Shown: positions 7,427-32,066 of the stretch, piece after piece
Numbering within the stretch: the stretch's first letter is position 1
Layout of the letters: every line of letters starts with the position of its first letter
Assembly (NCBI GenBank): GCA_015485335.1
Contig: WFTT01000057.1
Span: forward strand, 1-60,707
From: Robiginitomaculum sp.
Lineage (GTDB): Bacteria > Pseudomonadota > Alphaproteobacteria > Caulobacterales > Maricaulaceae
Direction: 5' to 3'
DNA length: 60,707 nucleotides
Translations under genes and position numbers: made by a program
Notes under the pieces: generated by a model
The model's database searches: none
What the model saw: only the letters and a program-made list of their open reading frames with translations
What the model was told of the DNA's origin: nothing

Positions 7427-7598
7427 ACCCCCGGGGATAAACCTGATACTCCCGCAAAAGGCACCCAAGGGACGTTTCAGGGTCAATATTTACCCCTTAC
7501 CCATCCCTCGATTACCCCTTATTCGTCCCTTTTCTGCGTTAAAAACACCCTTTATTACCCCTCAAATGATGCTTATTACCCCTTTTTGCCCCTAGAGT
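7427..7598. promoter_or_regulatory. Helically phased TTACCCCTT array upstream of ruvC
   Basis: The gap before ruvC contains the 15-mer ACCCCCGGGGATAAA (7427-7441), then GGG tracts at 7469 and 7480, then repeated TTACCCCTT-like units. Unit starts fall at 7490, 7501, 7512, 7523, 7544, 7555, 7576 and 7586, so successive steps are 10-11 bp or 21 bp. All copies therefore sit on one face of the helix. The best copies are at 7490, 7512, 7555 and 7576; the others keep only the CCC(C)T core. The array ends about 7 bp before the ruvC ATG. A regulatory or DNA-structural role is inferred. A related array lies upstream of rpoH at 29590-29746. Confidence 0.6.
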
Positions 7599-7604
7599 GG
7601 GTTT

Positions 7605-8108
7605 ATGAGCGAAATGATTCGGATTTTGGGAATTGATCCGGGCCTGCGCCGGTGCGGCTGGGGTCTGGTGGATGTGCGCGGCAGCAAAATCAGCTACCAT
7701 GCCTGTGGCACCATTATCCCCGATACGAAAGCAGAAATGAGCGTGCGCCTGTTGCACATATTTCACGAAATGCGCGCCGTCATCGCGCGCTATAATCCGG
7801 ATCGCGCGGCCATTGAAGATACCTTCATGAACAACAATGCCGCCTCGGCATTAAAACTGGGGGCGGCCCGCGCAGCGGCCATGCTGGCCCCGGCGGAGGC
7901 GGGTCTGGGCGTGGAGAATTATGCGCCCCGCCTTATCAAGAAGGCAATCGTCGGCACCGGCCGCGCGGACAAAAACCAGATGGCAGCCATGGTCGCCATG
8001 TTGCTGCCGGGCTGCACCGCCAAGGCCGATGAAGCCGATGCGTTGGCCATTGCCATATGTTGCGCCAATCATGCGCCGCTGGCCACAGCGTTGGAGCAGG
8101 CCTCATGA
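7605..8108 (+). CDS. ruvC: Crossover junction endodeoxyribonuclease RuvC
   Basis: Holliday-junction resolvase that nicks four-way junctions symmetrically, acting on junctions driven by RuvAB. The RNase H-like fold carries the four catalytic acids in the expected places: D11 (GIDPG), E71 (IED), and D142 and D145 (ADEADALAIA). Length (167 aa) is normal. The stop overlaps the ruvA start as ATGA, so ruvC-ruvA-ruvB are translationally coupled. The ATG has only a weak ribosome-binding site (GAGTGGG) because a C-tract array runs almost up to it. I see no LexA box of the GTTC-N7-GTTC type in front of it. Confidence 0.97.
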   Translation: MSEMIRILGIDPGLRRCGWGLVDVRGSKISYHACGTIIPDTKAEMSVRLLHIFHEMRAVIARYNPDRAAIEDTFMNNNAASALKLGAARAAAMLAPAEAGLGVENYAPRLIKKAIVGTGRADKNQMAAMVAMLLPGCTAKADEADALAIAICCANHAPLATALEQAS

Positions 8109-23051: not shown

Positions 23052-23102
23052 GACAGCCTATGTGGGCGGTGGGACACGCTTCCCCAACGAAGCGCGCCTG
23101 TC
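23052..23102 (+). ncRNA. Structured serC leader (candidate serC RNA motif)
   Basis: Upstream of serC the RNA can form a hairpin CGCTTC (23077-23082) / GAAGCG (23089-23094) with a 6-nt CCCAAC loop, extended by GACA (23073-23076) with TGTC (23099-23102). An upstream GACAG (23052-23056) could instead pair with CTGTC (23098-23102), so two structures compete. From memory, a conserved 'serC RNA motif' has been described upstream of alphaproteobacterial serC-serA operons, and location and size fit. Identity needs a covariance model match. Confidence 0.5.
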
Positions 23103-23119
23103 TGTGAGGATAGGAGTAC

Positions 23120-28017: not shown

Positions 28018-28335
28018 ATGAATATTCAAACCAAATTAAGCGTAAGTATTTTGGCCATCGCGCTATTGGCTCCGGCGTTATCTCATGCCGGTACGGGTCG
28101 TGCCAAAGGATGCGGCGTGGCCCAGGGTTCTGGCGTGCTGCACGGCACCGGAACCGTTTATGGCAAAGGTATTGCCATTGGCCATAATGCCAGAGGGGAG
28201 CGCGTCATCAAACGTGGCTCCGGCACCCTTAGCGGCACCGGCACGGTGATCGGTCGCGGCACATTTGTGGGCTGTGGCAAAGGCATCGGCACTGGCAAGG
28301 TCCGCGGCCATGGCACCAAACGGCGAGGTTTCTAG
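28018..28335 (+). CDS. Secreted glycine-rich hexad-repeat protein, unknown function
   Basis: I do not recognise this 105-aa protein. A signal peptide (MNIQTKLSV...LSHA, about 1-22) is followed by a mature chain of GxGxxx hexads: GSGVLH, GTGTVY, GKGIAI, then after HNARGERVIKR a second set GSGTLS, GTGTVI, GRGTFV, and a basic Gly-rich tail ending in KRRGF. Two Cys (in KGCGVA and FVGCGKG) could form a disulfide. The periodicity suggests a beta-solenoid or self-assembling fibre, which is inference. A GGAG lies before the ATG and an intrinsic terminator follows, so it is an independent unit. Confidence 0.75.
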   Translation: MNIQTKLSVSILAIALLAPALSHAGTGRAKGCGVAQGSGVLHGTGTVYGKGIAIGHNARGERVIKRGSGTLSGTGTVIGRGTFVGCGKGIGTGKVRGHGTKRRGF

Positions 28336-28357
28336 CCCAACCCCGAACCCCGCCTTG

Positions 28358-28396
28358 AACCCCGAAATGGTCCCTCAGGCTGTTTCGGGGTTTTTC
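28358..28396 (+). terminator. Intrinsic terminator after the Gly-rich gene
   Basis: Perfect 10-bp stem AACCCCGAAA (28358-28367) / TTTCGGGGTT (28383-28392) with a 15-nt loop, followed by TTTTTC on the plus strand. It ends transcription before the convergent rpoH gene. Confidence 0.85.
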
Positions 28397-28407
28397 TTAA
28401 GGTGCCC

Positions 28408-29298
28408 TTAAGCGTCCATCAAACCCTTTTCCTTGGCCTGTTCCAGCATGGCGGCCTGAAGTTTTTCAAAGGCGCGGACCTCGATCTGGCGAATACGTTC
28501 GCGCGAAACCCCATAGGTCTGCGCCAATTCTTCGAGGGTTTTTGGCTCTTCTGACAATTTGCGTTGTTGGATAATATCCTGTTCGCGCTCGTTCAGATTG
28601 GCCATGGCGTCCTGCAACAATTCCATCCGGGTGGAAAACTCGTCACTTTCGGCAACTTGCGTTTCCTGGCTGACATAGTTTTCGTCCTCCAGCCAGTCCT
28701 GCCATTGGCTGTCGCCTTCGGAGGAGCGCAAGGGCGCATTCAGCGAGGCATCGGGGCCGGACATACGCCGGTTCATCTGCACCACATCATTATTGGTTAC
28801 GCCCAGTTTGGTGGCAATGCTTTCCACCTGATCGGGATGCAGATCCCCATCATCAATGGCTTTCATCTGGCCTTTCATGCGGCGCAGATTGAAAAACAGT
28901 TTTTTCTGGGCCGCCGTTGTGCCCATTTTGACCAGCGACCAGGAGCGCAGGATATATTCCTGAATAGAGGCGCGGATCCACCACATGGCATAGGTGGCCA
29001 GACGAAAACCCTTATCCGGATCAAATTTTTTCACCGCCTGCATCAGGCCGACATTGCCCTCGGAAACCACTTCGCCAATGGGCAGGCCATAGCCGCGATA
29101 GCCCATGGCAATTTTCGCCACCAGGCGCAAATGCGAGGTCACCAGCTTTTGTGCCGCATCAGCGTCCTTGTGCTCGACCCAGCGTTTGGCCAGCATGAAT
29201 TCCTCGTCTTTTTCCAGCATGGGAAACTTGCGGATTTCGGTAAGATAGCGCGACAGCGAGGCTTCCGGCGTAGCGGAGACGGGTAACTGGGTTGCCAT
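28408..29298 (-). CDS. rpoH: RNA polymerase heat-shock sigma factor RpoH (sigma-32)
   Basis: Group 3 sigma factor for heat-shock genes. The 296-aa product has region 1.2/2 (YLTEIRKFPMLEKDEEFMLAKRW...GYGLPIGEVVSEGNVGLMQA), the RpoH box QKKLFFNLRR that separates RpoH from other sigma factors, and region 4 with the HTH TLEELAQTYGVSRERIRQIEVRAFEKLQ. The start at MATQLPV has TTAGGAG upstream; the longer frame to 29352 lacks support. FtsH, encoded at 16550, degrades RpoH in other proteobacteria. A long upstream region with a promoter candidate, a palindrome and a phased array precedes it. Confidence 0.96.
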   Translation of the reverse strand: MATQLPVSATPEASLSRYLTEIRKFPMLEKDEEFMLAKRWVEHKDADAAQKLVTSHLRLVAKIAMGYRGYGLPIGEVVSEGNVGLMQAVKKFDPDKGFRLATYAMWWIRASIQEYILRSWSLVKMGTTAAQKKLFFNLRRMKGQMKAIDDGDLHPDQVESIATKLGVTNNDVVQMNRRMSGPDASLNAPLRSSEGDSQWQDWLEDENYVSQETQVAESDEFSTRMELLQDAMANLNEREQDIIQQRKLSEEPKTLEELAQTYGVSRERIRQIEVRAFEKLQAAMLEQAKEKGLMDA

Positions 29299-29429
29299 GA
29301 AAATTCTCCTAAGGGCGCGACTTTTCGTCGTCTTTACAGTGTTGACCTTCATTTAGGTTTTTTTAGGACCGATTAAAGGGCATTCTTTCATATTTTGACC
29401 AGCGTGGCAGCAATATCACGCATTTGTTA

Positions 29430-29481: not shown

Positions 29482-29589
29482 CAGAGGCATCCCTCGCCCA
29501 TAAAGCCTTGTAAACCTCTTTATTTACAATGTCATTGTGGCAGTGCCCATGGTTTCTCATGACCGCCACGGCTCTATTGTGCACCTGTT

Positions 29590-29746
29590 TTTACCCCCGG
29601 GGATAAATTGCAAAAACCCCCGGACAAAAAGGGACAAACATCGCCTTTCAAGGGGTAAAAGAGGGGCAATACAGGGTCTATCTGGGGTAAATAAGGGGCA
29701 CTCAGGGGCCCCTACCCAAGGGGTAATTACCCCTTATTGACCCTTG
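29590..29746. promoter_or_regulatory. Helically phased AAGGGGTAA array upstream of rpoH (G4-prone)
   Basis: Contains the 15-mer ACCCCCGGGGATAAA (29593-29607), AAGGGAC (29629-29635), then G-tracts at 29652-29655, 29663-29666, 29674-29676, 29684-29687, 29695-29698 and 29705-29708, all 10-11 bp apart. A further GGGG is at 29720-29723, followed by inverted TTACCCCTTA (29727-29736) and TTGACCCTTG (29737-29746). The six regularly spaced tracts have 6-7-nt loops, so the plus strand satisfies the standard G-quadruplex pattern. The consensus is the complement of the array before ruvC; relative to the downstream gene both present TTACCCC on the coding strand. Confidence 0.6.
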
Positions 29747-29758
29747 TGGAGTGTGATC

Positions 29759-29807
29759 CCATCCTTCGAGGCCCTTCGTAGGCGCTTCGCGCCGCCTCAG
29801 GATGAGG
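29759..29807. repeat. Intergenic palindromic repeat (alphaproteobacterial type)
   Basis: Starts CATCCTTCGAGGC and ends GCCTCAGGATGAGG around a GGCGC-TTC-GCGCC core, so it folds into a long hairpin on either strand. Sequences of this kind are dispersed in intergenic regions of many alphaproteobacteria. Confidence 0.75.
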
Positions 29808-29824
29808 CCATATATATTCCACCA

Positions 29825-29869
29825 CCTCATGTTGAGGTGCGAGGCGAAGCCGAGCCTCGAAACATGAAG
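29825..29869. repeat. Second adjacent intergenic palindromic repeat
   Basis: CCTCATGTTGAGGTGCGAGG followed by CGAAGCCGAGCCTCGAAACATGAAG; the CATGTT/AACATG and CGAGGC/GCCTCG arms pair. It lies 17 bp from the preceding repeat and just before the pnp terminator. Confidence 0.7.
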
Positions 29870-29942: not shown

Positions 29943-32066
29943 TCAGCCTTCGTCTTGCTTGATCTCTTCGCCGGTTTCCTGATTGACGACCTTCATGGAG
30001 AGGCGAACCTTGCCCCGGTCATCAAAGCCAAGCACCTTGACCTTGACCTTGTCGCCTTCCTTGACCACGTCGGTGGTGTTGTTGACGCGCTCGGCGGCCA
30101 GTTGGCTGATATGTACCAGGCCATCCTTGGGACCAAAGAAGTTGACGAAAGCACCAAAGTCCATGGTTTTGACCACGGTACCGTCATAAATTTCGCCCAG
30201 TTCCGGCTCAGCGGCAATGCCCTTGATCCAGTCCATGGCGGCCTTGATCGCATTGGCATCCGAAGAGGCGATTTTGATCACGCCGTCATCATTGATGTCG
30301 ATCTTGGCACCGGTTTCTTCGACGATCTGGCGAATAACCTTGCCGCCAGAGCCGATGACTTCGCGGATTTTGTCCTTGGCAACGGTGATAGTTTCAATGC
30401 GCGGGGCAAATTCACCCACTTCTTCGCGAGAGGCACTAAGCGCCTTGTTCATTTCGCCCAGAATGTGCATGCGCCCACCCTTGGCCTGTTCCAGCGCGGT
30501 TTCCATGATCTCTTCGGTGATCCCGGCGATTTTGATGTCCATCTGCAAAGAGGTGATCCCCTTTTCCGTACCGGCCACCTTGAAGTCCATATCGCCCAGA
30601 TGATCTTCATCACCCAAAATATCGGAAAGCACGGCGACGCCGTCTTTTTCCTTGATCAGGCCCATGGCAATGCCGGAAACCGGACGGCTGATCGGCACAC
30701 CGGCATCCATCAGCGCCAGCGATGAACCACAGACGGTGGCCATGGAGGAGGAGCCATTGGATTCGGTAATTTCCGAGACCAGACGAATGGTGTAGGGAAA
30801 ATCATCCTTGGGAGGCAGTACCGCCCGCATGGCGCGCCATGCCAGTTTGCCATGGCCGATTTCACGACGCCCCGGAGGGCCCATGCGACGCGCTTCGCCA
30901 ACCGAATAGGGCGGGAAGTTATAATGCAACAGGAAGTTTTCCTTGGTGGTGCCGGTCAGGGCATCGATGAATTGTTCATCATCGCCTGTGCCCAAGGTGG
31001 CAATGACCAGCGCCTGGGTTTCACCGCGGGTAAAGAGCGCCGAACCATGGGTGCGGGGCAGAACCGCGGTTTCACCAATGATCGGGCGAACCTGATCGAG
31101 CTTGCGGCCATCAATCCGTTTACCGGTTTTGATGATATTGCCGCGAACCACATCGGCTTCCAAGGATTTGAGCACACCGCCCAAAACGTCCGAAGGAATG
31201 CCATCGGGATTATCATCAGACTGGCCAAGTTCGGCATAGGCCTTGTCCTTGGCAGCACCAACGGCGTCCTGACGTTCCAGCTTGTCGGTGATCTTATAGG
31301 CTTTGGTCAAGGCAGCACCAACCAGTTTCTTGGCGGCGGCCTTTTCCTTTGAATAATCCGGTGAAGCAAACTCAAAAGCAGGCTTGGCAGCCTTTTTGGC
31401 CAGACGTTCGATCATTTCAATGACCGGCTGCATGGATTCATGACCGGCCATCACCGCGCCCAACATATCGTCCTCGGACAATTCCTTGGCTTCGGATTCG
31501 ACCATCATCACCGCATCCTTGGTGCCGGCAACCAGCAGGTCCAGCTCGGTCTCGACCATTTCTTCAATGGTCGGGTTGATGACATATTCGCCGTCGATCA
31601 GGCCTACGCGGGCACCGGCAATCGGGCCCATAAACGGCACGCCGGAGAGCGACAGCGCCGCCGAGGCAGCCACCATGGCCAGCACGTCCGGGTCATTTTC
31701 CTGATCGTGGCTGAGCACGGTCAGGATCACCTGAACTTCGTTTTTAAAGCCCTTGGCAAACAAGGGGCGGATCGGACGGTCAATCAGACGCGAGGTCAAG
31801 GTGTCTTTTTCGGTCGGACGGCCTTCGCGTTTGAAAAAGCCGCCTGGAATACGTCCGGCGGCATAATATTTTTCGGTGTAATTTACGGTCAGCGGAAAGA
31901 AGTCCATGCCCGGTTTTGGCTCGCGGGCAAAGGTGACAGCGGCCAGCACGGTCGTTTCGCCATAGGTGGCCAGCACAGAACCCTGTGCCTGACGGGCAAT
32001 GCGCCCGGTTTCCAAGGTAAGGTCGCGACCTTCCCAATCAATCGTTTCTTTGTGGATATCAAACAT
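29943..32066 (-). CDS. pnp: Polyribonucleotide nucleotidyltransferase Pnp (PNPase)
   Basis: Phosphorolytic 3'-5' exoribonuclease of mRNA decay. Domain order is complete over 707 aa: RNase PH-like 1 (about 1-140), the helical domain, RNase PH-like 2 (about 315-545) with [40 protein letters not shown] and the catalytic [17 protein letters not shown], then a KH domain (about 555-615; [18 protein letters not shown]) and an S1 domain (about 622-690; [13 protein letters not shown]...[10 protein letters not shown]). It lies directly after rpsO, the usual arrangement. The 65-bp gap holds the palindrome CCATGCGCATGG (32094-32105), which could form an RNA-processing hairpin. Confidence 0.97.

Follow-up and report, generated by a model that had tools for sequence, protein, structure and literature searches.

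An array of short G-tracts lies between pnp and rpoH in a contig of Robiginitomaculum sp. (WFTT01000057.1; the window below is this whole stretch of 60,707 nt), and its position upstream of the heat-shock sigma factor gene raises the question whether it controls rpoH, e.g., as a G-quadruplex sensing temperature or supercoiling, which was the proposal of the first-pass annotation, or is found there for another reason. All six G-tracts listed in that annotation at 29652–29708, at distances of 10–11 bp, are present at their positions (Table 1), as are the two inverted units, which begin at 29727 (TTACCCC) and 29737 (TTGACCC). Two tracts had escaped it, GGG at 29631 and GGGG at 29720, the latter situated 15 bp past the last tract of the series and out of phase with it.

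Table 1. Coordinates of the two phased arrays of the window, their parts and the adjacent genes.
Feature	Position	Strand	Basis and remarks
Array core between pnp and rpoH, G-run strand	29649..29748	+	Profile match, model positions 27–137 of 156; 39.3 bits, E 2.4e-11
G-tracts, start (length)	29652(4), 29663(4), 29674(3), 29684(4), 29695(4), 29705(4)	+	Tract scan
Extra GGG tract	29631..29633	+	Read from sequence; 21 bp (two turns) ahead of the 29652 tract
Degenerate left arm with GGGGATAA at 29599–29606, as in other family copies	29593..29626	+	Sequence and alignment
Closing segment with the palindrome AAGGGGTAATTACCCCTT and the inverted unit TTGACCCTT	29718..29746	+	Sequence and profile match
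Block around TTTATTTACAATGTCATTGTG	29512..29540		Five-genome alignment; to the left of the array, conserved in part in G012, G010, G003 and G017
rpoH, downstream of the array in G000	28408..29352	-	TIGR02392
pnp (polyribonucleotide nucleotidyltransferase), 3′ end facing the array	29943..32066	-	TIGR03591
Second family member, ruvC leader array, G-runs on the minus strand	7450..7599	-	Profile match, 47.6 bits, E 6.5e-14
ruvC	7605..8108	+	PF02075

Chains of at least six tracts arose in one of 200 order-3 Markov versions of the window and chains of five in 11 of 200, while the plain count of GGGG-N7-GGGG shows no enrichment there (2 observed vs. 9.24 expected). Homology is stronger proof of the rpoH array than these tract statistics. 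A profile, R1, was built from sequence only, using 18 copies located elsewhere in the window's own genome (G000; the genus genomes compared are designated by G-numbers) and excluding the window copies. It matches both the rpoH array and an array in the ruvC leader (Table 1), so that the two constitute one family, as had been supposed, and have the same orientation relative to the downstream gene. The rpoH copy is degenerate, with 39 bits vs. 125–131 bits for the best family copies and with two tails out of phase; compared with the full anatomy comprising both arms, its left arm is degenerate and no clear right arm is seen.

Two other repetitive features are found in the vicinity. A palindromic repeat that belongs to a different dispersed type, CATCCTTCGAGG...CCTCAGGATGAGG with relatives, occupies 29758–29866, similar ones being found after many array copies. 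Four phased C-tracts at 28333–28427 of the minus strand, near the rpoH 3′ end, score just 7.5 bits with the profile (E 0.21) and are probably a chance match.

The family is large. With a 158-base copy from another contig as the query, 45 places are retrieved in G000 at E ≤ 10, and 36 of them at E ≤ 2.1e-4; on the window array the same query aligns as a pair of short colinear segments (E 0.0025 and 0.4) plus a segment on the opposite strand. With a pattern of three phased AGGGG-like tracts, G000 yields 13 matches, and with the reversed pattern none; in 60 relatives, both the pattern and its reversed control turn up at scattered places, so the pattern by itself is not specific outside the genus. 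R1 matches 14 of 18 genus genomes at E ≤ 0.01. The number of places differs between G014 (43), G000 (42), G012 (40), G010 (39), G003 (39), G006 (31), G005 (30), G002 (29), G008 (24), G004 (13), G013 (10), G017 (6), G007 (4) and G009 (1); no copy is found at this threshold in the other four, G001, G011, G015 and G016. Several G000 contigs (C3, C20, C21, C43, C44, C83, C101, C136, and others) end inside or near copies, hence the true copy number may exceed the count. In a family-wide sample analyzed with stricter filters, R1 matches 10 of 119 genomes, all from the same genus, and none from the 18 other genera of the 19 sampled.

By these profile comparisons, the rpoH array is a diverged copy, located at the pnp 3′ end, of a dispersed intergenic element that is restricted to the genus. 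This repeat is real, and its class, a dispersed intergenic repeat, is ordinary; it is unusual in its strict one-per-turn design and in its placement. A literature search, with most subscription journals outside its scope, turned up no description of this repeat. Phage and plasmid origin was considered as well and rejected, as neither the phage nor the plasmid collection contained a match to it.

The location of the array across genomes bears directly on the initial question. It is found at most about 0.5 kb upstream of rpoH in four genomes out of 15 (G000, G012, G003 and G017), and at about 1.25 kb from this gene in G010 and G002; at the other nine rpoH loci there is no array match within at most 1.5 kb, some of these stretches containing Ns or other genes (G006). 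In both G010 and G002, a gene encoding a Zn_peptidase metallopeptidase (PF04228) is situated between rpoH and the array. The distance from the array to the pnp stop codon, as read in G010, is 171 bp, vs. 195 bp in G000, while the distance to rpoH is 1301 bp in G010 vs. 297 bp in G000. As the array of G010 keeps its distance to pnp while the metallopeptidase gene parts it from rpoH, the copy is to be assigned to the pnp side of the intergenic region. The block around TTTATTTACAATGTCATTGTG in G010 also sits beyond the metallopeptidase gene, so the rpoH promoter alone does not account for it. A role tied to rpoH is therefore disfavored by the positions of the array, which follows pnp and is near rpoH in just four of the 15 genomes, and the notion of a single regulatory site does not hold for what is one of about 40 copies. 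An effect on rpoH is possible in species where the two are neighbors.

The quadruplex proposal can be assessed over the entire family. Both arrays of the window do fit the G3+N1-7 rule, as had been claimed for them, and the rule is satisfied by 10 of 34 copies in G000, 16 of 36 in G012, 6 of 13 in G006, 2 of 39 in G010, and 0 of 19 in G014. With loops of up to 12 nt, 27 of 34, 31 of 36, 10 of 13, 32 of 39, and 1 of 19 copies fit, respectively, and looser quadruplexes may thus form outside G014. Still, the G3+N1-7 rule fails in most copies while the helical phase is kept in all five genomes, so duplex geometry is the better-conserved trait, and the G-quadruplex was rejected as the conserved trait of the family. 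A quadruplex sensing temperature or supercoiling for rpoH, which would agree with the fit of both window arrays and, with longer loops, of most copies outside G014, is rendered hardly credible by the G3+N1-7 counts of the five genomes and by the same positional evidence, that is, the association with pnp and the presence near rpoH in a minority of genomes. A structured RNA was also rejected: there is no Rfam match at the array at the gathering threshold, and only one of 22 pairs has a double change. Elsewhere in the window, Rfam identifies the serC leader (RF00517, 64.6 bits) at 23067–23118 of the plus strand, directly 5′ of serC.

A typical G000 copy, as read from the sequences with the G-runs on the plus strand, has a left arm with GGGGATAA...TTATCCCCG, followed by a core of approximately 150 bp, which contains about eight units of the form nAGGGnYA, one per helical turn. 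After these units come two inverted ones that close the row, CTATGCGGGGGATAA, a variable stretch containing further palindromic repeats, and the right arm near GGGGATAGnAAAACCTTGTCCCACA. Among copies with both anchors found, the distances between G-tracts are mostly 10–12, 20–22, 32, 42–44, 54, and 64 bp, a few being off phase; the length part of this analysis, from which G014 was left out, provides weak evidence, as quantised lengths would equally result from unit duplication. In five genomes the GC period is 10.8–10.9 bp and the G period 10.5–10.75 bp; the GC-period signal is weak in G014 (7 copies), and single copies across genomes range from none to strong. The period peaks of the window copies are at 11.0 bp (rpoH) and 10.75 bp (ruvC).

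The mean phase coherence at 10.75 bp is 0.84–0.93 in G000, G012, G006, G010 and G014 (the latter represented by 10 copies having at least four tracts); for the two copies of the window it is 0.75. The phase is kept while the unit drifts from AGGGGTAA in G000 to AAGGGTCA in G014. Base preferences extend beyond the G-run: it is preceded by A in 94%, 95%, 88%, and 99% of 251, 287, 289, and 70 units of G000, G012, G010 and G014, respectively, and followed by any base, then a pyrimidine, then A; the GGG itself is fixed by the method of unit picking and hence is no independent preference. Excess curvature is predicted in G000, G012 and G010, with z of 5.1–7.1 under two bend models (first 15 copies in each genome); under the same models, the curvature predicted in G014 is weak (z 1.2–1.5, 7 copies). 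A central tract-free site, with one tract missing, is seen by eye in G000 and is located elsewhere in G010 and G014; a strong gyrase site would have a 36-bp center flanked by two periodic arms.

The copies also tend to be situated at convergent gene ends. Among 71 of the 75 copies fetched from G010 and G012, with genes called as longest ORFs without annotation, 35 are situated between convergent, 25 between co-directional, and 11 between divergent genes, while the 55 other gaps at the same loci comprise 12 convergent, 29 co-directional, and 14 divergent ones. The enrichment of convergent gaps (35/71 vs. 12/55) has p 0.0017, and the difference in divergent gaps p 0.18. With a looser gene call, applied to the first 20 copies of either genome, 16 of 40 are convergent, that is, the enrichment depends on gene calling. 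Against uniform random placement along the genome, rather than placement in intergenic gaps, the spacing of the copies is more even than expected in G010 (39 copies; CV 0.60 vs. 0.93, p 0.0015) and in G014 (CV 0.61 vs. 0.91, p 0.0065; 37 of 43 matches, from contigs with at least two), while in G012 the difference is not significant (CV 0.66 vs. 0.82, p 0.079). Along G010 contigs the strands of the arrays look mixed by eye, an observation bearing on the idea of polar replication-strand sites.

Periodicity and placement together bring DNA gyrase into consideration. The E. coli gyrase motif has a length of 130 bp, with flanking arms whose GC period is 10.75 bp (PMC6379681; see also PMC12393610), and the arrays have a GC period near this value over about 130 bp in five genomes as well as in the window copies. 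If the arrays were strong gyrase sites, their phased GC-rich and AT-rich stretches would permit wrapping of the DNA around the C-terminal domains of GyrA, and at converging gene ends, where arrays are enriched, they would relieve positive supercoils. The period match makes gyrase a serious rival, which we nevertheless regard as unlikely, given that the strict base preferences and strand asymmetry of the units are not needed by a GC-periodic motif, and that the tract-free center does not retain its place between G000 and G010 or G014. Strong gyrase sites, such as the Mu SGS, and the E. coli motif (PMC6379681) share with the arrays a length of about 130–150 bp and GC phasing at about 10.75 bp; the arrays differ in having a fixed motif per unit on one strand, and gyrase binding to them is only a candidate property. 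BIME-2, which is bound by gyrase (PMC6379681), and REP elements of enterobacteria are likewise dispersed in intergenic regions, but the core considered here is a tandem phased array without regularly alternating REP palindromes.

Another reading is that the copies are non-autonomous MITE-like elements or relics without host function, the arms being terminal inverted repeats and the array a present or past platform for transposase binding. MITEs are present as many short non-coding copies with inverted arms; here, too, there are many copies per genome, and the arms at both ends resemble each other, by eye, when inverted. Moreover, of 48 left genes ending toward the element, 25 stop 45–70 bp before the core, as if insertion were targeted, and the even spacing could stem from target immunity. 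On the contrary, 20 of 32 G000 positions are in common with G012 and 15 of 32 with G010 (a position being considered common given a reciprocal left gene and a similar distance, for copies in which the core reaches at least about 120 bp and a left edge is present), so that most copies are old. The right-arm pattern occurs 27 times in G000, 23 times beside arrays and four times at contig ends, and hence no autonomous partner with the same ends is seen among these matches; in G010, left-arm matches adjoin arrays in all ten cases. As the positions are mostly common between species and no autonomous partner is seen in G000, both unlike MITEs, we consider the mobile-element reading rather doubtful.

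Copies occupying common positions are not necessarily similar. Between G000 and G010, same-position copies are no more alike (0.613) than different-position ones (0.621). Within genomes, the likeness is 0.749 in G000, 0.711 in G012, 0.717 in G006, and 0.630 in G010, the last value being close to the between-species level, whereas different-position copies from different species among G000, G012 and G006 are 0.70–0.71 alike. In this group of three the position does matter by the same measure, as same-position copies are more alike than different-position ones in all pairs: 0.771 vs. 0.710 for G000 and G012, 0.741 vs. 0.701 for G000 and G006, and 0.773 vs. 0.697 for G012 and G006. These values suggest that copies have been homogenised within the group, and this would have happened after its split from G010, because many positions are common with the latter; another explanation would be saturation in G010.

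The array in the ruvC leader differs from the rpoH copy in that it adjoins the start codon of the gene in 10 of 14 genus genomes. R1 detects it in these ten with six strong (35–48 bits) and four weak (13–17 bits) matches, its end lying 4–11 bp from the start codon in nine of them and 45 bp away in G008; none is found in the ruvC leaders of G004 and G016. By a gap-ignoring measure, ruvC leader arrays are 0.87–0.91 alike among G000, G006 and G012, and 0.79–0.81 alike to that of G010. The ruvC leaders of G015 and G011 (L211 and L212) have no profile match, and by eye contain degenerate AGTGTCA-like units phased at 10–11 bp; a search of seven genomes with this degenerate pattern returned no matches other than these two leaders. 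Both the proximity to the start codon and the high likeness among the three genomes are consistent with control of the adjacent gene through its promoter or leader, exerted by a regulator that binds the tandem units, which would apply at least to ruvC. This reading is improbable, since most copies in G010 and G012 are outside divergent, or promoter, gaps and the rpoH copy stays with pnp.

Tandem direct repeats with a period of 10–11 bp, as in the arrays, are known from the type II centromere parC of plasmids R1 and pB171, where ParR binds and DNA is wrapped around the protein (PMC9426499); here dozens of chromosomal sites are present instead, and no parM or parR is found among the identified window neighbors (purA, rpoH, pnp, truB, and ruvC). 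The BldC operators of Streptomyces, too, consist of variable numbers of direct repeats, bound head-to-tail with distortion of DNA; a BldC protomer takes up 9 bp, and its motif is AT-rich (PMC5859096), compared to 10–11 bp and a G-rich motif in the arrays.

We put at about even the chance that the phased array is a platform for a sequence-specific putative protein that would bind one unit per turn, oligomerise along one face of the helix, and curve or wrap the duplex into a nucleoprotein structure; such a structure might serve chromosome organisation or insulation between converging genes. This reading is suggested by the existence of the family, its helical phase, the base preference beyond the G-run, the phase kept under drift, the placement, the even spacing, and the predicted curvature, and the base preferences favor a sequence-specific protein over gyrase. 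Against it, the copies are homologous, so the phase could be inherited rather than selected; the curvature predicted in G014 is weak, the spacing in G012 is not significant, the convergence depends on the gene call, the rpoH copy is degenerate, and four of the 18 genomes have no copy. Our estimate is no higher because much of this evidence agrees with the mobile-relic and gyrase readings as well, and the protein is only putative. A dedicated binding protein, the other suggestion of the first-pass annotation, thus is still plausible, while the rpoH-linked role suggested for the array is not supported. More tentatively, and with a clearly lower probability than the binding platform as such, the copies may be genus-specific chromosome-organising sites, that is, approximately 40 arrays of a one-per-turn motif, spaced rather evenly and frequently situated where genes converge, with a putative wrapping protein co-evolving with the motif, so that copies would change together among close species while places and phase persist.

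These results remove a misleading lead, heat sensing at rpoH, and suggest that a regulatory role is better sought at ruvC. Intergenic repeats of bacteria are commonly regarded as parasites; in this family, the phase is kept across species despite the drift of the unit and of much of the sequence, and many positions are kept as well. If this is due to selection, the binding or bending of the duplex would be what is selected. The arrays also provide sites that can be counted and used to test how the chromosome is organised in relatives of Caulobacter.
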